Assembly: GCA_030691225.1 (NCBI GenBank)
Contig: JAUYES010000105.1
Coordinates: 1-12,980, forward strand
Origin: Holophaga sp.
GTDB taxonomy: Bacteria > Acidobacteriota > Holophagae > Holophagales > Holophagaceae
Reading direction: 5' to 3'
DNA length: 12,980 nt
Every line of letters begins with the position of its first letter. The first letter of the stretch is position 1. Shown here piece after piece: positions 2,182 to 11,790 of this stretch. The position numbers and the translations under genes are program-made. The notes beneath the pieces were generated by a model. The model searched no databases, was not told where the DNA came from, and was given only the letters and a program-made list of their open reading frames with translations.

Positions 2182-2231
2182 AGACCACTTTCAGCCAAAT
2201 CAATCCACTTTGTGCCACTGATGTCCACTTA
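2182..2231 (-). promoter_or_regulatory. Five tandem 10-bp MraZ boxes upstream of mraZ
   Basis: Read on the minus strand, this is an uninterrupted array of five decamers: TAAGTGGACA, TCAGTGGCAC, AAAGTGGATT, GATTTGGCTG and AAAGTGGTCT. Four carry AGTGG and the fourth is degenerate (TTTGG). A strict 10-base period matches the known mode of MraZ binding, one repeat per helical turn, and the AAAGTGG core resembles MraZ boxes described elsewhere. The array ends 49 bases before the TTG start, directly after the proposed -10 element, a position suited to autoregulation. Confidence 0.85.
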
Positions 2232-2577: not shown

Positions 2578-2985
2578 TTGGCGCGACGCCCCTGCTGTAA
2601 GCGTGTTGAAGAAATGCCTGGTGTGAACTATTTCAAGCCCAGGGCAGTTCCTCTGTCCGCCTTGGAAGAAGTCACCCTGTCCATTGAGGAGTTGGAGGCA
2701 CTCCGGTTGGCCCACAAAGAAGGGCTTTATCAACTGGAAGCATCCGAGCGCATGGGAGTCTCCCGTGCGACCTTTGGCCGAGTCCTGGACGCAGCCCATC
2801 GAAAAGTCACAACAGCCTTGGTGGATGGTTGCGCCCTGCGAATTGAAGGCGGCTCATTCTGCATGGTAGGGCCGGGACTTTGTGAACGCTGCCCGGCCAA
2901 ACTCACTGGCGACAGCATTGGAACGGAATCCGTTTGCGACCACTGCCCAATCCGGAGCAAGCGCGCCGACAGCATCCAACCCTGA
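2578..2985 (+). CDS. DUF134-family helix-turn-helix protein with cysteine-rich tail
   Basis: A 135-residue predicted DNA-binding protein of the DUF134 (UPF0251) family. The family start MARRPxCKRV is followed by PxxxYFKPRAVPLSALEEVTLSIEELEALRLAH and a sigma-70 region-4-like HTH at about residues 36-78 (LEASERMGVSRATFGRVLDAAHRKV). The tail has CERC (102-105) and CDHC (120-123) plus Cys 85 and 95, suggesting a zinc or Fe-S site. Start is TTG at 2578, chosen because it gives the family N-terminus and has GGAGGA four bases upstream. The gene is alone on its strand and ends at a strong terminator. From general knowledge, DUF134 genes often sit near NifX-family and Mrp/MinD ATPase genes; such genes begin 6 kb downstream. 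A regulatory role is inferred; ligand and targets are unknown. Confidence 0.88.
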   Translation: MARRPCCKRVEEMPGVNYFKPRAVPLSALEEVTLSIEELEALRLAHKEGLYQLEASERMGVSRATFGRVLDAAHRKVTTALVDGCALRIEGGSFCMVGPGLCERCPAKLTGDSIGTESVCDHCPIRSKRADSIQP

Positions 2986-3013
2986 GCCATTTGATCGAAG
3001 CCTTTAGATGGAA

Positions 3014-3041
3014 AAAGGGCCCTCGCGATTGAGGGCCCTTT
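3014..3041. terminator. Bidirectional intrinsic terminator between convergent genes
   Basis: A perfect 11-bp stem, AAAGGGCCCTC paired with GAGGGCCCTTT, with a 6-base loop GCGATT. On the minus strand the stem is followed by a T tract (from the A run at 3012-3016), making it a good terminator for the octaheme gene. On the plus strand it ends the DUF134 gene with a shorter TTT. Confidence 0.9.
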
Positions 3042-3063
3042 GGCAAGAATCAGCCAAAAGCTA

Positions 3064-4482
3064 CTACCTTTTGGGTCCCTTGCGCGGATCTCCCGGATAG
3101 CCCAGAGCCTTCCAGTCCAGAACACTGGCAGCGCTGTGGCAATCTCCGCATTTTAGGGCCTGGCCCTTCGGAACCACCATGTGGTTCACCTTCCAGAACA
3201 TCTTGGTGTCCGTAAAGGCGACCTTGCCTGTAAAAGGAAGTCCTGCTTCCTTCATGCCGTCAGCGGAGGCCTTGACCCAGTCGAAGTGGTTCCAATAACC
3301 GCCGAAGAGCTTGGCGGAGATAAGCATATTGCTCCCGGTATCGTAGGGTTGGCGGCCTTGCATCACCTTGAAGGGAGTGAGCTTCGCGGACTTGTCGGCC
3401 CGTTCGCCCTTGGGACGGTTCAGGTAGGTCACCTGACCGGGCTTCATAAGATCGCCCAACAGGTAGCGGTCCACAGAGCCGTTGAACCAGAGGTAGGTGG
3501 GACGCACATCCTTTGACCACCGGAAATCACCCTTCATCTTGTCGTACAGGGGCATACCATTGGCATCCTTGCCCACCGGTTGATCCTTACCCGCCGTTGA
3601 CCAATCCCACCAAACCTTGGTCGGCAGATCCCGTGAGAAGGTGGGAATGTGGCAGGTTTGACAGGCCACCCGCTCCATGTGCTTGTTCAGCATGGGGTTC
3701 TTCTTGTGGGGAGCGCCAGCATGGCAGGTGCTGCAATCCAGGATTTGACCACCGCCACTGACCGAAACAGAGAGGGCCTTGCCGGGAATTTGGTGACGCT
3801 CGCTCTTGTGGCAAGCGGTGCAGGACATGTTCGGGCCAGCCGCAGCCATATGGACATCTCGCTCCCGAGAGGGCTTGAGCAGGGAACTGTCGAGGTCGCC
3901 ATGTTTGACATGGTCCCCACCGCCGCCATAGAAGTGGCAGGAACCACAGGTCGCCCGACTGGTCTTACCCACCTTTTTGGCAATGGAATCAAGATCGATA
4001 GCCTTCATCAGTTTGCCAGACCCCTTTGGCCATTCCATATCCTGCAGCACGGGGTTGCCTGCAGCCGTAGGGAACTTCTTGTAGGTTCCGGTTGTGTCGT
4101 GGCAAACAAGGCAGTCGATGTTTTCGGCCTTGGAGAAATCGAAGGAAGCATCCTTCCAGCCGTAGCCAGCATGACAACTCGTGCAGCGGGCATAGTTGGA
4201 AGGCAAGGCAAGGCAGAAGTTGTTAATCGCATTTTTCTTGCCCAGATCCATATCTTTGCCGTTGACCTTCTGGCGCGAGGACCAATTCCAGTGAACCGTC
4301 TTCATAAAGTCGTCGGCATGACCTTGATGGCACTCGAGGCAGGCCTTGGTCACCTCCGGGCCTGAGCGGAAGGGCCCGTTAACAAGGCTGGTATGGTCTT
4401 GTCCACTCTGGCCCCAGAGCAGCGGTCCAGCCAGCAGGGCGAGGCCGACAAGGGCCCGTTGAAAGGCTTTCAGCAAACACAT
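3064..4482 (-). CDS. Octaheme c-type cytochrome, tetrathionate reductase (Otr) family
   Basis: A 472-residue exported multiheme cytochrome. A signal peptide (MCLLKAFQRALVGLALLAGPLLWGQ) precedes eight CXXCH heme sites at residues 48-52 (CLECH), 100-104 (CTSCH), 124-128 (CLVCH), 179-183 (CGSCH), 221-225 (CTACH), 250-254 (CSTCH), 274-278 (CQTCH) and 445-449 (CGDCH). Seven hemes in the first 280 residues, a heme-free stretch of about 165 residues and one C-terminal heme match the octaheme tetrathionate reductase family. The Shewanella member can reduce tetrathionate, nitrite and hydroxylamine in vitro; the physiological substrate is usually unclear. The ATG at 4482 is chosen over an upstream one (4575) because it has GGAGGAT just before it and starts a clean signal peptide. 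It has its own promoter-like region containing the shared operator. Confidence 0.9.
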   Translation of the reverse strand: MCLLKAFQRALVGLALLAGPLLWGQSGQDHTSLVNGPFRSGPEVTKACLECHQGHADDFMKTVHWNWSSRQKVNGKDMDLGKKNAINNFCLALPSNYARCTSCHAGYGWKDASFDFSKAENIDCLVCHDTTGTYKKFPTAAGNPVLQDMEWPKGSGKLMKAIDLDSIAKKVGKTSRATCGSCHFYGGGGDHVKHGDLDSSLLKPSRERDVHMAAAGPNMSCTACHKSERHQIPGKALSVSVSGGGQILDCSTCHAGAPHKKNPMLNKHMERVACQTCHIPTFSRDLPTKVWWDWSTAGKDQPVGKDANGMPLYDKMKGDFRWSKDVRPTYLWFNGSVDRYLLGDLMKPGQVTYLNRPKGERADKSAKLTPFKVMQGRQPYDTGSNMLISAKLFGGYWNHFDWVKASADGMKEAGLPFTGKVAFTDTKMFWKVNHMVVPKGQALKCGDCHSAASVLDWKALGYPGDPRKGPKR

Positions 4483-4551
4483 GTATCCTCCAGAAAGGAG
4501 CAGGATTGGGGTGATCCGGGAACTAAGAGGAGCAGAGCGACTACAACAAAA

Positions 4552-4575
4552 TGAGCTTATGCCCACAAATGTCAA
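4552..4575 (-). promoter_or_regulatory. Promoter/operator of the octaheme cytochrome gene (shared motif site 1)
   Basis: On the minus strand a perfect -35 hexamer TTGACA (4575-4570) is followed by TTTG and the 14-base inverted repeat TGGGCATAAGCTCA (4565-4552). The same arrangement occurs before the NifX-like gene at 9196-9219: TTGACT, ATTG, TGAGCATATGCCCA. Over 26 aligned bases the two sites share 21. The -10 element is unclear (ATTTTG or CATTTT). The operator lies where the -35/-10 spacer would be, a common position for repressor or MerR-type control. Confidence 0.6.
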
Positions 4576-4577
4576 TC

Positions 4578-5849
4578 TCAGTAATCCCCCGCTCGACCAT
4601 TTAGTTTGCTCTGCATGATCCTCAGGATTTCAGCATCCACACCCGCCATGCCATGCTGGGCAAGGCGACCCAAGTTGGCCAGGGAGCTTTCCCCGTTTTC
4701 ACCTACGATTCCGTCCGTGGCCGGGATTCCAATTCCTGCCAGAGCCAGATTCGCAGATCGAAAAGCAGCATCAACCCCGGTCATCGTTTTCATGGCACAC
4801 CCAATCTTTGCGCCGTCGCAGATCATACCGGCGACATTTCCCACCATATTTGAGACGGCTAAACCCACCTGATCGGCGTTTCCACCCTCCAAGTGCACAA
4901 GGGCAGAGGCAACGCCAATGCCAGCGGCATTAGCCGCACCACAAATGGCAGATAAGGTGCCCAAGTGCCAAGTGGCAGCCGTTGTCATGAGGCAAGCAAA
5001 CGCGAGAGCCTCCTCAATTTTGTCTTCAGGGTGCCCCGATTCTCGGCCCCAAAGGCTCACAGGAACCGCAACGGTAATGCCTTTGTTGCCTGAACCGGCT
5101 AAGGTCATCACCGTCAGGGATTCCCCCGACATGCGGGCAAAGACTCCGGCGCTAACAAGGCGAGAAAGGCGCGTCTGTGAATCCTGTCCCGCCGGGGCGA
5201 CGAAGCCAGAAGGTAACCGCGACAATCCGTGGCGAGCAATTGCCAGGTTAAGAGTCACTCCCTCCTGGAGTCGCTTCCGGTCCTCTGAATTCAACATCTT
5301 GGCGAGGTCCATCAGATCCTTTATCGAGCTCGCTGCCACTTGCTGACGCAGCGAAGGACCCTCCTGCGCCCGGGAACTTGTTTCTGCGCCGCCAACCAAA
5401 TGGCCATCCTTTTCCAGGCGGGCCAGATGGGAATGTTCTCGTTCCAAAGCGGCCCGGCCGACACCCCTTTCCCTAACAACAGTCACGTCCACCATCAGGC
5501 AACTCTGCTGAGCATCCACCTCCACATGGACCCCATGCTGCTCCAAAAGCCTTTTAGCGGTTTCGATCAAGGCGGGATTTGTTCCCTCGAAACTTCGCAA
5601 TCCAAGGGAAGCATCCGGCAGGTGCGCTCCCAAGGCCAGAGCCCAAAGAATCCCAGTGGCGCGATCCGAATTTGGAAGCCCGACGGCATAACAGTTTTTG
5701 TAGGTGCGGGGGTCACACACCAGACGGATTTGGCGGACCTGACCACCACCCTGCTCAGCAGCCAGTGCTGCGGCCCAGGCAACGGCAGCAGGCTCAGTGC
5801 AACCAAGCGCGGGCTTCCATTCCGCCGCGAGAAAATCGGTCATGCGCAT
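4578..5849 (-). CDS. cyuA: L-cysteine desulfidase, CyuA/UPF0597 family (Fe-S dependent)
   Basis: A 423-residue enzyme of the L-serine dehydratase-alpha/L-cysteine desulfidase family (YhaM/CyuA), which breaks cysteine into H2S, ammonia and pyruvate using a [4Fe-4S] cluster. Signature motifs are present: KPALGCTEPAAVA with Cys17, AGSGNKGITVAVPV (251-264), ICGAANAAGIGVA with Cys303, and MICDGAKIGCAMK with Cys344 and Cys351. These supply the three cluster cysteines expected for the family. The first ATG (5849) is chosen because GGGGAG lies about 7 bases upstream; the second ATG two codons later is too far. The downstream octaheme gene begins about 95 bases after the stop on the same strand. UPF0597 members vary in substrate, so serine or related amino acids remain possible. 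Confidence 0.9.
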   Translation of the reverse strand: MRMTDFLAAEWKPALGCTEPAAVAWAAALAAEQGGGQVRQIRLVCDPRTYKNCYAVGLPNSDRATGILWALALGAHLPDASLGLRSFEGTNPALIETAKRLLEQHGVHVEVDAQQSCLMVDVTVVRERGVGRAALEREHSHLARLEKDGHLVGGAETSSRAQEGPSLRQQVAASSIKDLMDLAKMLNSEDRKRLQEGVTLNLAIARHGLSRLPSGFVAPAGQDSQTRLSRLVSAGVFARMSGESLTVMTLAGSGNKGITVAVPVSLWGRESGHPEDKIEEALAFACLMTTAATWHLGTLSAICGAANAAGIGVASALVHLEGGNADQVGLAVSNMVGNVAGMICDGAKIGCAMKTMTGVDAAFRSANLALAGIGIPATDGIVGENGESSLANLGRLAQHGMAGVDAEILRIMQSKLNGRAGDY

Positions 5850-6052
5850 GGTGTCACTCCCCAGTTAGCCAAATGCCTATTCGCCATCATCCTGCTGCAT
5901 TGTGGCTTCGCATGCCAGCGGCGCCGAGTGAATGTCACATTACGAGATATAACCTCAATAGGATCAGCCATGGTTCGCGAATGAAACGCAGGGGCCCCGT
6001 TGGCGCCACCTGCACCGCCACCGATTACAACAATGCAGCAGGAACGGGACAT
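5840..6052 (-). pseudogene. Small ORF resembling a truncated FAD-binding start of a sulfide dehydrogenase-like flavoprotein
   Basis: A 70-residue reading frame just upstream of the cysteine desulfidase, overlapping its start by 10 bases. It begins MSRSCCIVVIGGGAGGANG, a near-perfect dinucleotide-binding loop (GxGxxG). It continues ADPIEVISRNVTFT, which resembles the second strand of flavocytochrome c sulfide dehydrogenase and sulfide:quinone reductase (pattern DPxIEVTLIERNPxYT). The ATG at 6052 has AAAGGA four bases upstream. The rest does not resemble a flavoprotein, and the frame is far too short for one (about 400 residues), so it may be a decayed remnant. It could instead be a short cysteine-containing leader peptide (four Cys codons, two adjacent), or chance. 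No function is claimed. Confidence 0.35.
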
Positions 6053-6185
6053 CGAATCCTTTCTTCTGAGCAAAAAACGAATGCTCAACCTTTTTGCCAA
6101 TATAACCATTCAAGCGAAATTCAATAACTATGGCAAGGAAATGCGTGGGAGTCGCTCACGACACATGCGATTGTCCTCACGTTTA

Positions 6186-6199
6186 AGATCATATGCTCA
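6186..6199. promoter_or_regulatory. Shared operator motif site 2
   Basis: The plus strand reads AGATCATATGCTCA; its complement TGAGCATATGATCT has a perfect left half (TGAGCAT). The inner 12 bases GATCATATGCTC differ from a perfect palindrome at one position. It lies midway between the two divergent genes, about 340 bases from each. ATAGTTTGC follows at 6211-6219, as it does after site 3. Confidence 0.5.
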
Positions 6200-6451
6200 C
6201 CATTATGAAAATAGTTTGCACGGAGGATCCGACTAGACCCATCCATCCCCTAACGATTCTGGATTCTGAAAACAGGCTCCAAATGAATGCAAAATCCCAC
6301 ACAATCAACCCAGACGCCTTTGCCTAGTCGCAAAGCGGAATGATGCGAGCCAATGCCCGCAGTCGCATCTACGAAATTCAAAGTAATTGAGGAGCCAGAT
6401 TCAGAGGCATCGAAAAATCCGCTGACCGGATGGATTCCAAACAATATTTTT

Positions 6452-6465
6452 TGGTCATATGCTCA
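6452..6465. promoter_or_regulatory. Shared operator motif site 3, upstream of the cysteine synthase-like gene
   Basis: The plus strand reads TGGTCATATGCTCA; its complement TGAGCATATGACCA differs by one base from the site before the NifX-like gene. It lies 10 to 23 bases before a good -10 hexamer, TAAAAT (6475-6480), so a bound protein would cover the -35 area of this promoter. Confidence 0.6.
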
Positions 6466-6474
6466 ATAGTTTGC

Positions 6475-6480
6475 TAAAAT
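6475..6480 (+). promoter_or_regulatory. Probable -10 element of the cysteine synthase-like gene
   Basis: TAAAAT matches the -10 consensus at five of six positions and would start transcription near 6487, giving a leader of about 45 bases. The -35 is poor (TTGGTC at 6451-6456, 18-base spacing) and overlaps operator site 3, so activation or repression at this point is plausible. Confidence 0.45.
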
Positions 6481-6530
6481 ACGGACTCACATAAAGTCGC
6501 CGACCGAGTTCAAAGATCGCGCTGAGGGGG

Positions 6531-7523
6531 ATGAACGTGCAGAGAACTCATTGTTCGATCCTAGAGACCGTCGGAAAGACTCCCCTGGTGGAACTCAGAC
6601 AAATCAGCCGAGAAGCCGGGTGCCAGGTCTTTGCCAAACTGGAATTCTTGAATCCCATGGGCAGCATCAAAGACCGCGTCGCACGCTACATGATCGAGGC
6701 AGCGGAACGGAACGGGCGCATCAAGCCCGGCGACATGATCCTGGAAAATTCTTCAGGAAATACGGCACTTGGGCTTGCGCTGGTGGCGATTCAGAAGGGC
6801 TACCGCCTGAAGGTAGTGGTCCGGGACCGGATCAGCCGGGAAAAGCTGGACCAGCTCAGAGTCCTGGGTGTGGAAGTCCACCTCGCGGATAGCAGCCTGC
6901 CACCCGAACATCCCGATAGCTATAACCGCATCACACCCCGCCTAGCGCGGGAAACACCCAACTGCTACTTCCCGGACCAGCACAGCAACCGCGAGAACAA
7001 CGCAGCCCACTATCACGGCACTGGTCCCGAGATCTGGGAGCAGATGGAGGGCCGCATTGACGCCTTTGTGGCGGGGGCAGGCACGGGCGGGACCATAGGC
7101 GGCGTTGGACGCTACCTCAAAGAACGGGATCCCAAAATCCAGGTGATTGCGATCGACCCCATCGGCTCGGTGTTCCATGACCATTTCCGGGGGCACAAGG
7201 ACTTAGTTTCCGGCCCTTATCTTGTTGAAGGGCTGGGGGACGAGTTCCCCATTGCGACGATGGACTTCGAGATCCTCGACGACATCCTGCAGGTACGAGA
7301 CCAAGACACCTTTCTGGAAGCTCGGGGCTTGGCTCGAAGCGAAGGATTACTGGTGGGTGGCTCCAGTGGTGCGGCCATCTGGGGTGTTCGCCAAGTAGCC
7401 GCCAGACTTGGTCCCAAAGCTCGGATCGCGACGGTATTTCCGGATGGGGCCTCCCGCTACCTCAGCACTGTCTTCAGCGACGACTGGATGAGAGCTCAGG
7501 GGTTCCTCGCACCCAAAGCGTAA
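6531..7523 (+). CDS. Cystathionine beta-synthase / cysteine synthase family PLP enzyme
   Basis: A 330-residue fold-type II PLP enzyme. Visible motifs: ILETVGKTPLVEL at the start, the PLP lysine in NPMGSIKDR (Lys47), the substrate loop ENSSGNTALG (72-80), the phosphate-binding GAGTGGTIGG (182-191), VEGLGDEF (232-239) and GGSSGAA (277-282). The VEGxGxxF segment and overall pattern are closer to the catalytic core of cystathionine beta-synthase than to CysK, but there are no C-terminal CBS domains. It may make cystathionine from serine and homocysteine, or cysteine from (acetyl)serine and sulfide. The loop has SGNTA in place of the usual SGNTG. ATG 6531 sits only 3 bases after GAGG; GTG at 6537, with better spacing, is a possible alternative start. 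It is divergent from the cysteine desulfidase gene and 19 bases before the peptidase gene. Confidence 0.9.
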   Translation: MNVQRTHCSILETVGKTPLVELRQISREAGCQVFAKLEFLNPMGSIKDRVARYMIEAAERNGRIKPGDMILENSSGNTALGLALVAIQKGYRLKVVVRDRISREKLDQLRVLGVEVHLADSSLPPEHPDSYNRITPRLARETPNCYFPDQHSNRENNAAHYHGTGPEIWEQMEGRIDAFVAGAGTGGTIGGVGRYLKERDPKIQVIAIDPIGSVFHDHFRGHKDLVSGPYLVEGLGDEFPIATMDFEILDDILQVRDQDTFLEARGLARSEGLLVGGSSGAAIWGVRQVAARLGPKARIATVFPDGASRYLSTVFSDDWMRAQGFLAPKA

Positions 7524-7542
7524 ACAAGATCAGGAGGATCAC

Positions 7543-9120
7543 ATGAAGCATCCTGGAATAGTCGCATTCACCCTGCCCTTTTTGCTTGCAGCTCAGGAAC
7601 CCGCGATTGATAAGGACGCCCTTCGAGGACACCTGGCCTTCCTGTCCGATGACCTGCTGGAGGGCCGCGGCATGGGTCAACGGGGCGGTGACCTAGCCGT
7701 GCGGTATTTGGAAACCCAGCTTCGGGTCCTTGGACTCCGGCCCGCCAACGGCGACAGCTACCTCCAGTCAGTAAAATTGGTAAGCATGCATCCCAAGCTT
7801 GACGAAAGCCGGATAGTTTTCGAAACACCCAAAGGGCCCCTCGATCTTCAGCTTGGAAAGGATTTCTTCCTCGCCCCCTCTGGCCCGGAAACCCTGACCC
7901 AATTGAATGCACCCCTTGTTTTCGTAGGGCATGGAATTTCAGGAAAACCCGGAAGGTGGGACAGCGACAAAGGCCTGGACCTGCGCGGCAAGGTCCTAGT
8001 GATGCTCATGGGCGAGCGGATGGATACGAACGCCCATGAGCCGTGCTGTACGCCAACCCACTACCAAGGGCGATGGGTCCACAAGATCGAGGAGGGTCTT
8101 CGCCAAGGAGCGGCTGCCGTGCTCATTGTGCACACGCCCATTTCAGCCCGCTACGAGTGGAGCGTGGCCTGCACTGGCTGGAGTGGAGAACGATTCGCCC
8201 TGGACACGGGAAGTGGCACATCCATCCTGGGTGGTTTTATCAGTCAGGATGCAGCCCGTAAGCTCTTCATGGCAGTGGGTCGAGATCTGGATGCCTTAAC
8301 GCGCCGCTCTGAGGACCCAGCTTTTCGTCCGATCGAACTTGGAATTCAAGCCAAGGGAACCGTGCTGAGCAAGGTCAGGCACTTGATCCAATACAACGTA
8401 GCTGGCCTGCTGCCAGGCACAGATCCAGCTTTGAAGGATGAATCCGTGGTGTATTCGGCGCACTGGGATCACTTTGGACGGCACAAAGATGGCCGCATCT
8501 TTAATGGGGCCGTAGACAATGCCAGTGGTCTTGCCGCGGTTCTAGCCATCGCCCATGCTGCCATCCGTAAGCCCACCCGGCGCAGCCAGTTATTCCTCTT
8601 TCTTACCGGTGAAGAGGCCGGTCTACTGGGTGCCACCGCCTACGTTCGCTCACCCCTGCGCCCCATGAGCAAGACCGCTGCGGTCCTCAACCTGGAGAGC
8701 CTCAATTTCCTGGGTGAAACGAGAGACATCGCGGCCTTGGGGGCTGATTTCAGCGAGCTCGGTGATCATGCCAAGACAGTCGCCGCATCCATGGGTTTGC
8801 GCTTTCGCGGATGCGCCCCGGACCCTGCAGGCCTCTACTTTCGAGCCGATCACTTTGCCTTTGTGCGCGGAGGCGTGCCAGCAATCTCCCCGGGGTTCTC
8901 GTTGAATGGCGGTTGGGACTACGTTCAGGACCCCAAAGCCTCCCAGCTCAAGGCGGAGGATTGGCTTCGCAATGGGTACCATCAACCCGCCGATCGGTAT
9001 GATCCCACCTGGAAACTGGATGGAATGGCGCAGCAGACCCAATTCGTCTTTGCATTAGGACAGGTCGTGGCCAATGCTCCCGAAAAACCCAGGTGGCTGA
9101 ATGGCGTTCCTAATTTCTAA
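7543..9120 (+). CDS. Exported M28-family zinc aminopeptidase with PA-type insert
   Basis: A 525-residue metallopeptidase. A short signal-like N-terminus (hydrophobic residues 5-17, then AAQEP) suggests export. The middle, about 120-270, looks like a protease-associated (PA) insert (PLVFVGHG, LRGKVLVML, GLRQGAAAVLIVH). The catalytic domain follows, with likely zinc ligands His307 (SAHWDH), Asp325 (NGAVDNASG), Glu357/358 (TGEEAGLLG; one general base, one ligand), Glu385 (NLESLN) and His480 (YHQPADRYD). It would remove N-terminal residues from peptides outside the cytoplasm. The ATG has AGGAGG upstream and the gene is probably co-transcribed with the preceding PLP enzyme gene. Why the two are paired is not evident; supplying amino acids is one idea. 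Confidence 0.9.
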   Translation: MKHPGIVAFTLPFLLAAQEPAIDKDALRGHLAFLSDDLLEGRGMGQRGGDLAVRYLETQLRVLGLRPANGDSYLQSVKLVSMHPKLDESRIVFETPKGPLDLQLGKDFFLAPSGPETLTQLNAPLVFVGHGISGKPGRWDSDKGLDLRGKVLVMLMGERMDTNAHEPCCTPTHYQGRWVHKIEEGLRQGAAAVLIVHTPISARYEWSVACTGWSGERFALDTGSGTSILGGFISQDAARKLFMAVGRDLDALTRRSEDPAFRPIELGIQAKGTVLSKVRHLIQYNVAGLLPGTDPALKDESVVYSAHWDHFGRHKDGRIFNGAVDNASGLAAVLAIAHAAIRKPTRRSQLFLFLTGEEAGLLGATAYVRSPLRPMSKTAAVLNLESLNFLGETRDIAALGADFSELGDHAKTVAASMGLRFRGCAPDPAGLYFRADHFAFVRGGVPAISPGFSLNGGWDYVQDPKASQLKAEDWLRNGYHQPADRYDPTWKLDGMAQQTQFVFALGQVVANAPEKPRWLNGVPNF

Positions 9121-9240
9121 GGCCTCCTTGGCGCCAAGTTCGCACCGGCTGTAAAAGCTGCGGAAACGCCCCTGCAAAGTGTGACCAAGGTTGGATTGAC
9201 TATTGTGAGCATATGCCCATTATTGATGTAGAGGTATCCC
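9121..9240 (+). other. Short intergenic region before the ORP-like operon
   Basis: It holds a perfect 12-base palindrome CTTGGCGCCAAG (9127-9138), not followed by a T tract and therefore not a clear terminator, and the promoter/operator at 9196-9225. Confidence 0.5.
9196..9225 (+). promoter_or_regulatory. Promoter/operator of the ORP-like operon (shared motif site 4)
   Basis: TTGACT (9196-9201), ATTG, the 14-base inverted repeat TGAGCATATGCCCA (9206-9219), then TTATTG. The operator fills the spacer between the -35 and a weak -10 (ATTATT or TTATTG). The arrangement is the same as before the octaheme gene. The leader would be about ten bases, with GAGG (9230-9233) serving the ATG at 9241. Confidence 0.6.
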
Positions 9241-9609
9241 ATGACCGCTGCACCCATCCAGAGGATCGCCATCACCAGCGAAGGCCCCACCCTTGCGGAT
9301 CTGGTAGATCCCCGATTTGGTCGCGCCGGTGGTTTTGTGGTGATAGACCTACAAACCATGGCCACAACCTACGTGGACAATGGCTCCTCCCAGGTCTTGG
9401 CCCAGGGGGCTGGCATCCAGGCAGCCGAAAATCTCATCAAGGCAGGTGCTCAGGCCTTGCTGACCGGGCATGTGGGACCCAAAGCCTGGGCCGCACTCCG
9501 GGCTACTGGCGTAAAAGTGGTGCAGGGAGTGGAGAACATGACCGTCGGCGAGGCGGTGGCCAAGTTCCAGGCTGGGGCCTTTGCCTTCTCGAATGCCCCC
9601 AGCCACTAG
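9241..9609 (+). CDS. NifX/NafY-like protein, dinitrogenase iron-molybdenum cofactor biosynthesis family (first copy)
   Basis: A 122-residue single-domain protein of the NifB-C/NifX/ORP family (RNase H-like fold). Motifs: IAITSEGPTLADLVDPRFGRAGGFVVID (residues 9-36), the loop GAGIQAAENLIKAG (56-69) and LLTGHVGPKAW (73-83). Family members bind metal-sulfur clusters or their precursors; the Desulfovibrio orange protein carries a Mo-Cu-S cluster. No nif genes are visible in this window, so a nitrogenase role is not supported here. It is the first gene of a five-gene run, 9 bases before the first ATPase, with GAGG near the ATG. Unlike the second copy it has no His-rich tail. Confidence 0.9.
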   Translation: MTAAPIQRIAITSEGPTLADLVDPRFGRAGGFVVIDLQTMATTYVDNGSSQVLAQGAGIQAAENLIKAGAQALLTGHVGPKAWAALRATGVKVVQGVENMTVGEAVAKFQAGAFAFSNAPSH

Positions 9610-9618
9610 GAGGCGATC

Positions 9619-10497
9619 ATGATTGTCGCGATCGCCAGCGGAAAAGGAGGGACGGGTAAAACCACCGTCTCCGCCGCCCTGGCTTCAATCTGGAAACGCC
9701 CGGTGTTAGCCGTGGATATGGATGTGGAGGAGCCGAACCTGCATCTCTTCCTGAAACCAGGATCCGTGCGCATCGAGCCGGTCTACTTGGAAGTGCCGGT
9801 GCTTGACAAGGCCCTCTGCAAGCTCTGCGGGGCCTGCGCCGAACTATGCCAGTTCAAGGCCATCAGCCTGATGGGTGCCCATCTGCTCATCTTTCCAGAC
9901 ATGTGCCATGGGTGCGGGGGTTGCATGCGCATTTGCCCCGAGGGTGCACTCCAAAAGGGTCAGCGGGAACTGGGCGTAGTCGAGACAGGTATGACTGCCG
10001 ACGGAATTCCCTGCCTAACCGGCCGCCTTCGCATCGGTGAAGCCATGAGCCCACCGCTCATGGGTAAGGTCCGTCAGCGGATGCAGGCCATGGCCGAGAA
10101 AGAGATCCGCGACATCATCATCGACGCCCCTCCGGGTGTGAGTTGCCCAGCCATGACCGCCGTGCAGGATGCGGATGTCATTCTCCTGGTCACGGAACCC
10201 ACCCCCTTTGGTCTCCATGATCTTCGCTTGGCCTGGCAGGCCTTCCGCCCCCTGGGTAAACCCATGGGCGTTGTCATCAATCGTGCCGGTGTGGGCGATG
10301 ACCAAGTCCACTCCTTTTGCCAAGAGAAAAATCTACCGCTGTTGGTGGAGATCCCCTTCCGCCGGGATATCGCCGAGCACTATGCCCACGGCGGCATTTT
10401 GCCCCAGCTTGATGCAGGCATGAAGGCCACTTTCGAAGAATTGGCGGAGCGACTGGAACGCATGGCCACCGAAGGCGTCGGGGTAAGTCATGCGTGA
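9619..10497 (+). CDS. MinD-superfamily P-loop ATPase with inserted 2[4Fe-4S] ferredoxin domain (A)
   Basis: A 292-residue cytoplasmic ATPase. The deviant Walker A is GKGGTGKT (residues 9-16), with VDMDVEEPN (32-40) and DAPPGVSCP (169-177). Between them lies a bacterial-type double-cluster ferredoxin: Cys67, 70, 73, 77 and Cys96, 99, 102, 106 (CKLCGACAELC, CHGCGGCMRIC). This is the COG1149 type, known in pairs beside NifX-like genes in anaerobes, including the ORP system of Desulfovibrio. A role in building, delivering or reducing a metal-sulfur cluster is inferred from family and context. The next gene begins 8 bases before this one ends. Confidence 0.93.
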   Translation: MIVAIASGKGGTGKTTVSAALASIWKRPVLAVDMDVEEPNLHLFLKPGSVRIEPVYLEVPVLDKALCKLCGACAELCQFKAISLMGAHLLIFPDMCHGCGGCMRICPEGALQKGQRELGVVETGMTADGIPCLTGRLRIGEAMSPPLMGKVRQRMQAMAEKEIRDIIIDAPPGVSCPAMTAVQDADVILLVTEPTPFGLHDLRLAWQAFRPLGKPMGVVINRAGVGDDQVHSFCQEKNLPLLVEIPFRRDIAEHYAHGGILPQLDAGMKATFEELAERLERMATEGVGVSHA

Positions 10498-11395
10498 ACT
10501 GGTTGTCATCAGCGGCAAGGGCGGTACGGGAAAAACATCGCTGACCGCCGCCTTCGCTCATTTAGCCGAAAAGAATGTACTGTGCGACCTGGATGTGGAT
10601 GCACCGGACCTCCATCTGATCGCGGAACCCACCCTTCAACGAAGCGGCCCCTTCCTCGCGGGCCATCTGGCTGAAATAGATCCAACCATTTGCACAGGAT
10701 GCGGCACCTGCAAGGAGGTCTGCGCCTACGGTGCCATCCATCAAGAGGAAGAGCACTTCGTGGTGGATTCGCGCCACTGCGAAGGCTGCAAGGTTTGTGT
10801 GGCCCTCTGCCCTGAGCAGGCAATCGACTTCCCGGAACGCCTCTGTGGCACCTGGTACGAGAGCGATACTCGCTTTGGTCCCATGGTTCACGCCCAACTC
10901 GACCCCGGTCAGGAAAATTCAGGAAAGCTCGTGACTCTGCTCAAGGCCAAGGCGCGGGAAAGAGCATCCCAGTTGGGCCTGGAACTGATCCTGAGCGACG
11001 GGGCACCCGGCATCGGCTGTCCGGTCATTAGTTCGCTCTCCCAGGCGAGCCTTGTGTTGCTTGTCACGGAACCCACCCCCTCGGGCCTCCATGACCTGGA
11101 ACGCGTGGCGGAACTCTGCCGCACCTTTCGGATTCGCAGTGCGGTCCTCATCAACAAGGCGGATCTAAGCCCAGAATACGAGGCCGCCATCCAGGTCTTC
11201 TGCCAAGCCCGAGAGATTCCCGTAGTCGGAAGCCTGCCCCACGATTCCGCAGTGACCAAGGCCATGGTCCGCGGACAAGCCGTCACCGAAGGCCCTGACA
11301 CTCCCTTCGGAACCAAGGTTCGCCAGATCTGGACGGACCTTCAGCCCCTGTTTGAAGCATCGCCCTCTTCCCTTTCTAAGGAGTCCAAATCATGA
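10490..11395 (+). CDS. MinD-superfamily P-loop ATPase with inserted 2[4Fe-4S] ferredoxin domain (B)
   Basis: A 301-residue paralogue of the preceding ATPase. Walker A SGKGGTGKTS (8-17), DLDVDAPD (33-40), ferredoxin cysteines 68, 71, 74, 78 and 97, 100, 103, 107, and SDGAPGIGCP (169-178). The extra cysteine just after the PPG/APG switch motif is kept in both paralogues and may bind a ligand or cluster at the nucleotide site. The two probably act as a heterodimer, since MinD-type ATPases dimerise around ATP. This gene overlaps both neighbours (8 bases before, ATGA after), so expression is tightly coupled. Confidence 0.93.
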   Translation: MRELVVISGKGGTGKTSLTAAFAHLAEKNVLCDLDVDAPDLHLIAEPTLQRSGPFLAGHLAEIDPTICTGCGTCKEVCAYGAIHQEEEHFVVDSRHCEGCKVCVALCPEQAIDFPERLCGTWYESDTRFGPMVHAQLDPGQENSGKLVTLLKAKARERASQLGLELILSDGAPGIGCPVISSLSQASLVLLVTEPTPSGLHDLERVAELCRTFRIRSAVLINKADLSPEYEAAIQVFCQAREIPVVGSLPHDSAVTKAMVRGQAVTEGPDTPFGTKVRQIWTDLQPLFEASPSSLSKESKS

Positions 11396-11790
11396 ACCAA
11401 GCACGCATTGCCATCCCCTCCACCCTTCCCGGCGGTCTCGAAGCCAGTGTGGGAGCTCACTTCGGCCACTGCGATCTCTACACGGTAGTGGATATCAAGG
11501 ATGGTCAGATTTCGGCGGTAAGTACCTTGCCGAATGTCCCCCACCAACAGGGTGGCTGCCTAGCACCCGTGAACCACCTGGCCCAGAACGGGGTCACCGT
11601 GCTCATCTCCGGTGGGATGGGGCTGCGTCCCCTCATGGGCTTCAACCAGGCGGGGATCGAGGTCTACCGGGGCGCCGAGGCTCCCAGCGTGGACGCCGCG
11701 GTCAAATCCTACCTCAGCGGTGATCTCCAGCGCTTCACCCGCGATCACACCTGCGGCGGTGGGCAGCACGGTGAAGGACACCAGCACTAG
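11392..11790 (+). CDS. NifX/ORP-like dinitrogenase iron-molybdenum cofactor family protein with His-rich tail (second copy)
   Basis: A 132-residue family member of a different subgroup from the first copy. It has VGAHFGHCDLYTVVD (20-34), HQQGGCLAPVNHLAQNG (51-67), LISGGMGLRPLMGF (71-84) and a C-terminal tail CGGGQHGEGHQH (121-132). Cys27, Cys56 and the Cys/His tail could bind metal. Its start overlaps the ATPase B stop (ATGA). In the ORP system a protein of this family is the orange Mo-Cu protein; which of the two copies here would play that part cannot be told from sequence alone. Confidence 0.9.
   Translation: MNQARIAIPSTLPGGLEASVGAHFGHCDLYTVVDIKDGQISAVSTLPNVPHQQGGCLAPVNHLAQNGVTVLISGGMGLRPLMGFNQAGIEVYRGAEAPSVDAAVKSYLSGDLQRFTRDHTCGGGQHGEGHQH

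Follow-up and report, generated by a model that had tools for sequence, protein, structure and literature searches.

A palindrome shared by NifX/ORP-type and sulfur genes in a Holophaga contig is a likely operator of DUF134-family proteins

In Desulfovibrio vulgaris, the orp system includes the ferredoxin-motif proteins Orp3 and Orp4 together with an Orp8-type protein, and a MrpORP domain comparable to NifX binds a 3Fe-4S cluster, according to PMC6345978. Proteins similar to these are encoded on a contig of Holophaga sp. (JAUYES010000105.1, assembly GCA_030691225.1, C376 in our numbering), which was analysed over its entire 12,980 nucleotides and is referred to here as the window; the assembly comprises 3.32 Mb and is 76% complete. 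The ORP-like operon of the window (9241–11790, forward strand) has the order NifX, ATPase, ATPase, NifX: a first NifX-like protein (Nitro_FeMo-Co; 9241..9609; PF02579, 70.1 bits), two MinD/ParA-type ATPases with 4Fe-4S domains that resemble Orp3/Orp4 (9619..10497 and 10490..11395), and a second, Orp8-like NifX protein (11392..11790; PF02579, 72.6 bits). The two 4Fe-4S-motif ATPases and the NifX-like protein by which an ORP complex is recognised were therefore present, and none of the eight window proteins scanned was a two-domain MrpORP protein (best match 66.6 bits against a cut-off of 450, to the NifX part only). Upstream of this operon lies a palindrome of the form TGARCATATGYTCA, which recurs near sulfur genes of the same contig. 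We consider it likely, with good confidence, that this palindrome is the operator by which DUF134-family proteins repress NifX/ORP-type genes and, outside the window's family, their own gene. Sequence comparisons indicate that the cognate regulator in the window is very probably the DUF134 protein encoded at 2578..2985.

The initial annotation of the window had listed four such palindromes, and all four lie where it placed them: TGAGCATATGCCCA (9206..9219, forward strand) before the NifX/ORP-like operon, TGGTCATATGCTCA (6452..6465, forward) before a cysteine synthase-like gene, AGATCATATGCTCA (in its plus-strand reading; 6186..6199, reverse) in the divergent region, and TGGGCATAAGCTCA (4552..4565, reverse) before an octaheme cytochrome gene. 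It had also suggested a weight-matrix scan. Using an independent matrix of 82 sites, none of them from the window's family, these four scored 22.8, 18.7, 16.7 and 15.5 bits and were the top four places in the window, where the reversed matrix reached 2.6 bits at best. At up to three mismatches the window contained 17 match rows (nine places, palindromic ones being counted twice, once per strand) versus 6.1 expected (standard deviation 2.9), and none of 200 shuffles reached 17. Across the window's own genome, 45 places matched at up to two mismatches, in 31 forward and 35 reverse rows; the reversed pattern gave 15 and 18. A first matrix, trained on 13 sites that all come from the window's family and include the four window sites themselves, ranked these four 1–4 among the 45. 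When 12 places were rescored with the independent matrix, one on another contig (C46:4452) reached 16.9 bits, outranking two of the four. The extra sites on C46 and C690 were rejected, as a promoter was not seen by eye or the site lay just past a possible start codon within a frame. The half-site TGGGCAT at 2370, which had been pointed out before the DUF134 gene, scored 13.2 bits with the independent matrix and 9.9 bits with the first, and is not counted as an operator. It is the only candidate for an autoregulatory operator of DUF134 in the window, and was rejected as such because nothing comparable exists in the nearest relative (G061, locus L118), where the first matrix gave at most 1.9 bits within 1.5 kb upstream of DUF134.

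Evidence that ties the palindrome to DUF134 came from scanning 200 bp upstream of DUF134 genes with the first matrix at a 12-bit threshold. Outside the window's family, sites were found at 20 of the 29 loci returned for the best Acidobacteriota DUF134 matches and at 23 of the 28 remaining above-cut-off loci, as well as at 57 of 80 loci from named genomes (the best 80 of 541 relatives); the reversed matrix yielded 0/29, 0/28 and 0/80, respectively. By record title the 80 named loci cover more than 15 phyla, and by our own grouping TGARCATATGYTCA-type sites occur in about 15 of these. Within the window's family, sites of at least 12 bits lay within 1.5 kb on either side of DUF134 at 13 of 29 loci (control 1/29; three of the 29 fall below the Pfam cut-off). 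Sites of at least 18 bits were found at most 1.5 kb from DUF134 in genomes G026, G037, G041, G043, G062, G063, G065, G066, G071 and G072, and 2.3 kb away in G019. DUF134 itself scored above the Pfam cut-off in 21 of the 77 family genomes, and the family search also matched the control genomes Methanocaldococcus jannaschii and Methanosarcina acetivorans.

The named loci contained 66 sites of at least 15 bits (control 0), for which the nearest recognised frame was DUF134 in 46 cases and NifX/ParA in 10, with none recognised in the remaining 10. The neighbours of these last ten were judged by eye, with Pfam run for L205, L207, L209, L216, L217 and L237. They precede a DUF4405 membrane protein (L207), a DUF5320 protein at the head of an ORP run (L209), ARMT1-like (DUF89) frames (L216, L220), TrmO-like frames leading into DUF134 (L217, L222) and a pyridine-disulfide oxidoreductase carrying a rhodanese domain (L237); one overlaps the start of an ArsR-like frame (L210), one looks like chance (L259), and one has a sigma-54 activator on one side and a methyltransferase on the other (L205). 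This last locus is a spirochaete ORP cluster, in which the region 3975–5331 holds the PAS/sigma-54 activator gene and, 21 bp ahead of the gene start, the DUF134-type palindrome (5318), pointing to a possible link between the sigma-54 and DUF134 kinds of ORP regulation.

The DUF134 protein of the window (PF02001, UPF0251; 135 amino acids, forward strand) scored 67.6 bits against a Pfam cut-off of 27, while its sole NCBIfam match, to the equivalog PRK04217, reached 58 bits against a cut-off of 115. Some sources label its homologues as predicted DNA-binding proteins of the UPF0251 family, which we take to correspond to COG1342. Helix-turn-helix helices were identified at residues 36–47, 52–59 and 63–83, and an AlphaFold model likewise shows a helix-turn-helix (mean predicted local distance difference test score 83, low in the C-terminal third), with a recognition helix, 63–83, that includes Arg68. 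This residue, the last of an SRxTxxR or SRxTxxN pattern, was compared with the DNA at 163 DUF134 loci, at which it was Arg in 148, Asn in 12 and unreadable in 3. A palindrome built on a CATATG core, with two or more of the four outer pairs, was identified at 83 loci of the Arg class and 9 of the Asn class. Position 2 of the half-site was G in 132 of 166 half-sites of the Arg class (A in 29, C in 3, T in 2) and T in all 18 of the Asn class (Fisher 1.1e-11 for G, which overstates independence because three of the nine Asn loci share one genus). Arg-class sites were mostly TGAG, TGAA or TAAG, and Asn-class sites TTGG or TTAG.

DUF134 matches were also present in 170 plasmid records, mostly enterobacterial, and six plasmid-borne members were fetched afterwards as extra cases for this code. 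By eye, the Asn members had TTAGCAAATGCCAA in Acetoanaerobium and TTGGCATATGCCAC in the Escherichia coli plasmid pKTa005 (TTAGC/TTGGC sites), and the Arg member of Phocaeicola had TGAACATTTGTTCA; those of Treponema, Peptoclostridium and Pusillibacter have other residues there and, by eye, other CATATG- or AAATG-centred palindromes, and provide no test of the code. The conjugative pKTa005 (L373) carries a DUF134-NifX gene pair at 3001–3884, with two Asn-class palindromes seen upstream by eye. On these comparisons we propose Arg68 as the specificity residue that covaries with half-site position 2. The DUF134 protein had been offered as one candidate regulator, and both this covariation and the sites upstream of DUF134 outside the family support that choice; a single regulator acting through common operators is likewise supported.

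NifX/ORP-type genes form the second conserved group of neighbours. Besides the window, the survey of 77 family genomes revealed ORP-type operons in G061, G052 and G064, and twice in G051. In each, the first NifX gene is preceded by a palindrome, or has one across a start whose position is uncertain (TGAGCATATGCCCA for G061, TGAACATTTGCTCA for G052, TGAGCATATGTCCA for G064, and two of ~13 bits for G051); the G061, G052 and G064 forms had been used for training, and their scores therefore give no independent test. In Peptoclostridium the gene order is DUF134-NifX-ATPase-ATPase-MrpORP, and DUF134 is fused to NifX (Nitro_FeMo-Co) in L111:1495-2247 and L097:663-1406, the NifX domain being C-terminal and including a His/Gly-rich stretch. 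One scanned DUF134 protein has a stretch that matches zinc-ribbon models below their cut-offs. Across 396 Acidobacteriota genomes, exact TGARCATATGYTCA occurred in 28 copies in 25 genomes, and the reversed motif once. DUF134 was above the cut-off in 16 of these 25 genomes, compared with 61 among all 396 (Fisher 1.1e-8). Judged by coordinates, 15 of the 28 copies lie within ~1 kb of DUF134; of the other 13, four stand upstream of NifX/ORP genes or, in the case of L385, of an apparently DUF5320-like frame. A motif that is common and unrelated to gene function, which had been named as the outcome that would speak against a regulon, was not seen, since 19 of the 28 exact copies adjoin DUF134 or NifX/ORP-type genes.

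The sulfur genes of the window behaved differently from this core. They encode an octaheme tetrathionate-reductase-family cytochrome (3064..4482, reverse strand; 472 amino acids, eight CxxCH motifs; NCBIfam TIGR04315, 603 bits, cut-off 375), an SDH_alpha-family protein (4578..5849, reverse; PF03313, 147.6 bits, with no NCBIfam model above cut-off) that we take to be L-cysteine desulfidase-like (CdsB-like), and a pyridoxal phosphate enzyme of the cysteine synthase/cystathionine beta-synthase group (6531..7523, forward; PF00291, 253.6 bits, best NCBIfam models below cut-off). The CdsB-like gene, which starts 337 bp away, is possibly the target of the 6186..6199 operator. Conservation of the palindrome upstream of orthologues, as called for by the initial annotation, held for NifX/ORP genes and, at most loci outside the window's family, for DUF134 genes, but not in general for the cysteine and octaheme genes, whose fetched orthologues mostly lack a site. 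A strong site lay just upstream at two of 20 CdsB-like loci (20 fetched of 50 matches) and two of 30 CysK-like loci (30 fetched of 100), each time in the window genome and G061, and before the octaheme gene in the window only (20 fetched of 33 matches); all three were therefore rejected as general members. Elsewhere, one CysK locus (L294) has a 15.9-bit site ~1.4 kb away, two octaheme loci (L326, L329) have a strong site before a nearby DUF134 gene instead, and five have an 11–12 bit match inside the octaheme match itself. Octaheme genes ~47% identical to that of the window are also found 1 to 6 kb away from DUF134 on G019 C17, G026 C113, G037 C153 and G043 C198, and a strong site directly before the gene was not seen in these four. 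The regulon as first drawn, spanning sulfur metabolism and Mo/Fe-S cluster handling, thus keeps its Mo/Fe-S (NifX/ORP) genes, with DUF134 and NifX/ORP as the conserved core, and loses sulfur metabolism from that core.

This pattern could also arise if the cysteine- and octaheme-gene sites had been left behind when an ORP cluster was rearranged, or had arisen by chance, with 9206 alone functional. The scarcity of sites at orthologues fits such an origin, as do the octaheme upstream regions of G062 and G056, where the site is absent, and of G064, where none was seen. We nevertheless regard it as rather unlikely, as the 13 kb window has four strong sites, all intergenic, and as some relatives have sites before the same genes. 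The operator before the cysteine synthase-like gene in G061 C154 is identical to TGGTCATATGCTCA, a variant, TGACCATATGCTCA, precedes a second, partial CysK-like frame in G061 C106, and TGTGCATATGATCC lies 48 bp before the CdsB match of G064. In G033, TTGACA followed after 4 bases by a degenerate TGACCATGAGATCA (10.7 bits) precedes an 81%-identical octaheme gene in the same -35 frame. At the corresponding place G061 lacks most of the octaheme gene, with ~100 bases of its 5' end left, and in the operator TGAGCTTATGCCCA has become TGAGCTTATACCCA, with the loss of one conserved base, as expected if the now mostly missing gene was its target. Another G061 contig edge carries a partial octaheme gene, 77% identical, without its promoter. 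The C106 contig itself carries (L083, 1015–5975) a second, paralogous DUF134 cluster, with an operator before the partial CysK-like frame and before the NifX1 gene. Recruitment of sulfur genes into the operator set is, on this comparative evidence, likely real, and is called local to the lineage because most fetched CdsB, CysK and octaheme orthologues lack a site.

Promoter elements were found at preferred distances from the palindrome. Among 81 aligned sites, a -10-like hexamer (at least 5/6) lay at +12 from the operator in 47 and a -35-like hexamer at -11 in 27, and both hexamers (at least 4/6) were present at these or neighbouring offsets in 48. In a smaller second group (21/81), the -10-like hexamer begins 5 bases before the operator, in part because the palindrome flanks are themselves symmetrical. 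The 9206 and 4552 sites of the window fall in the main frame, and 6452 covers a -35-like position. At 9206, the 16-base spacer between TTGACT (9196..9201, forward) and CATTAT (9218..9223, forward) contains the operator, and the first two bases of the -10-like element are common to both; at 4552, the octaheme gene has TTGACA at 4570..4575 (reverse). The TTGACW flank is a -35-like box, and the flanked 26-mers of 4552 and 9206 agree at 21 of 26 bases, as originally counted.

These data suggest a mechanism in which DUF134 probably binds the palindrome as a dimer, with Arg68 of each recognition helix reading the G at half-site position 2, as the covariation implies; Asn in its place would be predicted to shift the preference to TTRGCATATGCYAA. 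Bound in the -35/-10 spacer, or close by, the protein would block sigma-70 RNA polymerase; a repressor is inferred because the operator fills the spacer and shares bases with the -10. Its conserved targets would be NifX/ORP-type genes and, beyond the family of the window, the DUF134 gene itself, and in the lineage of the window the operator would also serve the cysteine synthase-like, desulfidase-like and octaheme cytochrome genes. Relief might come from a metal or from an Fe-S or Mo-S cluster, perceived together with a NifX-type partner; such a signal is made plausible by the DUF134-NifX fusions and by 3Fe-4S binding in the comparable MrpORP domain. DUF134 could instead bind the same site and activate, either by re-aligning promoter elements from the spacer, in a MerR-like manner, or by recruiting polymerase through a sigma-region-4-like fold. 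An operator that fills the -35/-10 spacer is compatible with such a role, and sigma region 4 is among the closest folds (none with E <=0.001). We consider activation unlikely, however, since the commonest frame has a normal 17-base spacer, and the window one of 16, that needs no re-alignment, and since the site has bases in common with the -10.

A further alternative to DUF134 binding is that the palindrome belongs to another regulator, such as LexA, ArsR/SmtB or a sigma-54 enhancer-binding protein, with its targets beside DUF134 by chance. The LexA SOS box has the core GAAC-N4-GTTC, and TGAACATATGTTCA resembles both LexA boxes and ArsR-family sites. Nine of the 28 exact copies lie elsewhere than beside DUF134 or NifX/ORP-type genes; six of them overlap a frame of more than 200 amino acids, maybe spurious, and three resemble the site of another regulator. 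These three, exact TGAGCATATGCTCA at L381:3024, L382:2954 and L383:2948 in genomes without DUF134 above the cut-off, lie in a longer palindrome (L381, L382) or, by eye, beside an ArsR-like frame (L383), and are probably another regulator's site; the L210 site overlaps the start of another such frame. In D. vulgaris, moreover, the orp operons are under the control of sigma-54 and DVU2106, palindromic sites being involved (PMC3897727). Set against this, the Arg/Asn covariation links the DNA sequence to the DUF134 helix, the site lies directly upstream of DUF134 in ~15 phyla, and none of the four window sites has the LexA core, so that we judge another regulator to be quite improbable. A reading of the 4552 palindrome as a weak terminator for the gene at 4578–5849 is more improbable still: the palindrome was flagged as terminator-like (6 pairs, then T-rich), but such sites number 15 in the window versus 13.2 expected, and TTGACA stands at operator spacing with the 21/26 identity to the 9206 promoter.

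Several observations weigh against DUF134 as repressor through this palindrome. A site of at least 12 bits within 200 bp was present at only 4 of 26 DUF134 genes of the window's family and was missing from 23 of the 80 named loci, part of them with an Asn helix; at least two of the named loci repeat Acidobacteriota loci. Nine of the 25 genomes with an exact copy have no DUF134 above the cut-off, besides the nine copies that lie elsewhere. DUF134 was not found in G064 (96% complete) or G272 (85%), which have ORP operons with sites, although the G064 contig ends where DUF134 is expected, so its absence there proves nothing. For the code, kinship among the genomes inflates the Fisher value, and CATATG anchoring placed at least one site wrongly (L094). 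Promoter-like matches in the window numbered 2 versus 3.9 expected, and because they are not above chance the window promoters rest on aligned relatives. Repression itself rests on position, and some spacer-binding regulators activate. A far wider role, with DUF134 as a bacteria-wide master regulator of ORP/NifX proteins that senses a NifX-delivered Fe-S or Mo-S cluster, uses the Arg/Asn code and recruits sulfur and octaheme genes in some lineages, is a tentative and somewhat doubtful extension.

The rest of the window includes an M28 peptidase (7543–9120) and, ahead of an mraZ-like gene, four direct copies of AGTGG (2185–2229, minus strand) whose starts follow one another at 10, 10 and 20 bases. 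We take these repeats to be a likely MraZ-type operator, in an intergenic region that the mraZ-like gene shares with DUF134.

If DUF134 acts as proposed, an uncharacterised family gains a testable job, switching genes for Mo/Fe-S protein complexes and, here, some sulfur genes, and a domain present across many bacterial phyla acquires a function and an operator, along with a specificity rule based on a single residue. It would also provide a handle on ORP/NifX proteins, whose role is not settled. With a known operator the regulon of other genomes could be traced from their sequence, and the inducing signal would become accessible by reporter experiment. The suggestion of an undescribed regulon agrees with the open-access literature, in which searches that included the motif letters GAGCATATGCTC, DUF134 and UPF0251 found no regulon role for DUF134, subscription journals being mostly uncovered; nor did the papers searched assign it an operator, target or specificity residue. 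Where DUF134 is named in that literature it is mentioned in passing, and UPF0251 appears as an entry in a mutation table.

Among proteins of known structure, the best sequence match to DUF134 in the PDB was a DeoR DNA-binding domain (7bhy, presumably that of Bacillus subtilis DeoR; E 1.3e-4 over ~40–50 helix-turn-helix residues), and in a fold search with the DUF134 model the nearest folds were likewise this domain of DeoR and region 4 of sigma factors, no match having E <=0.001. Unlike DeoR, the alignment is limited to the helix-turn-helix, and the 135-residue protein has no room for the DeoR effector domain. The difference from the D. vulgaris orp system lies in the promoter: there, according to PMC3897727, sigma-54 promoters are activated by DVU2106 with IHF, whereas the window has sigma-70-like promoters overlapped by the palindrome.

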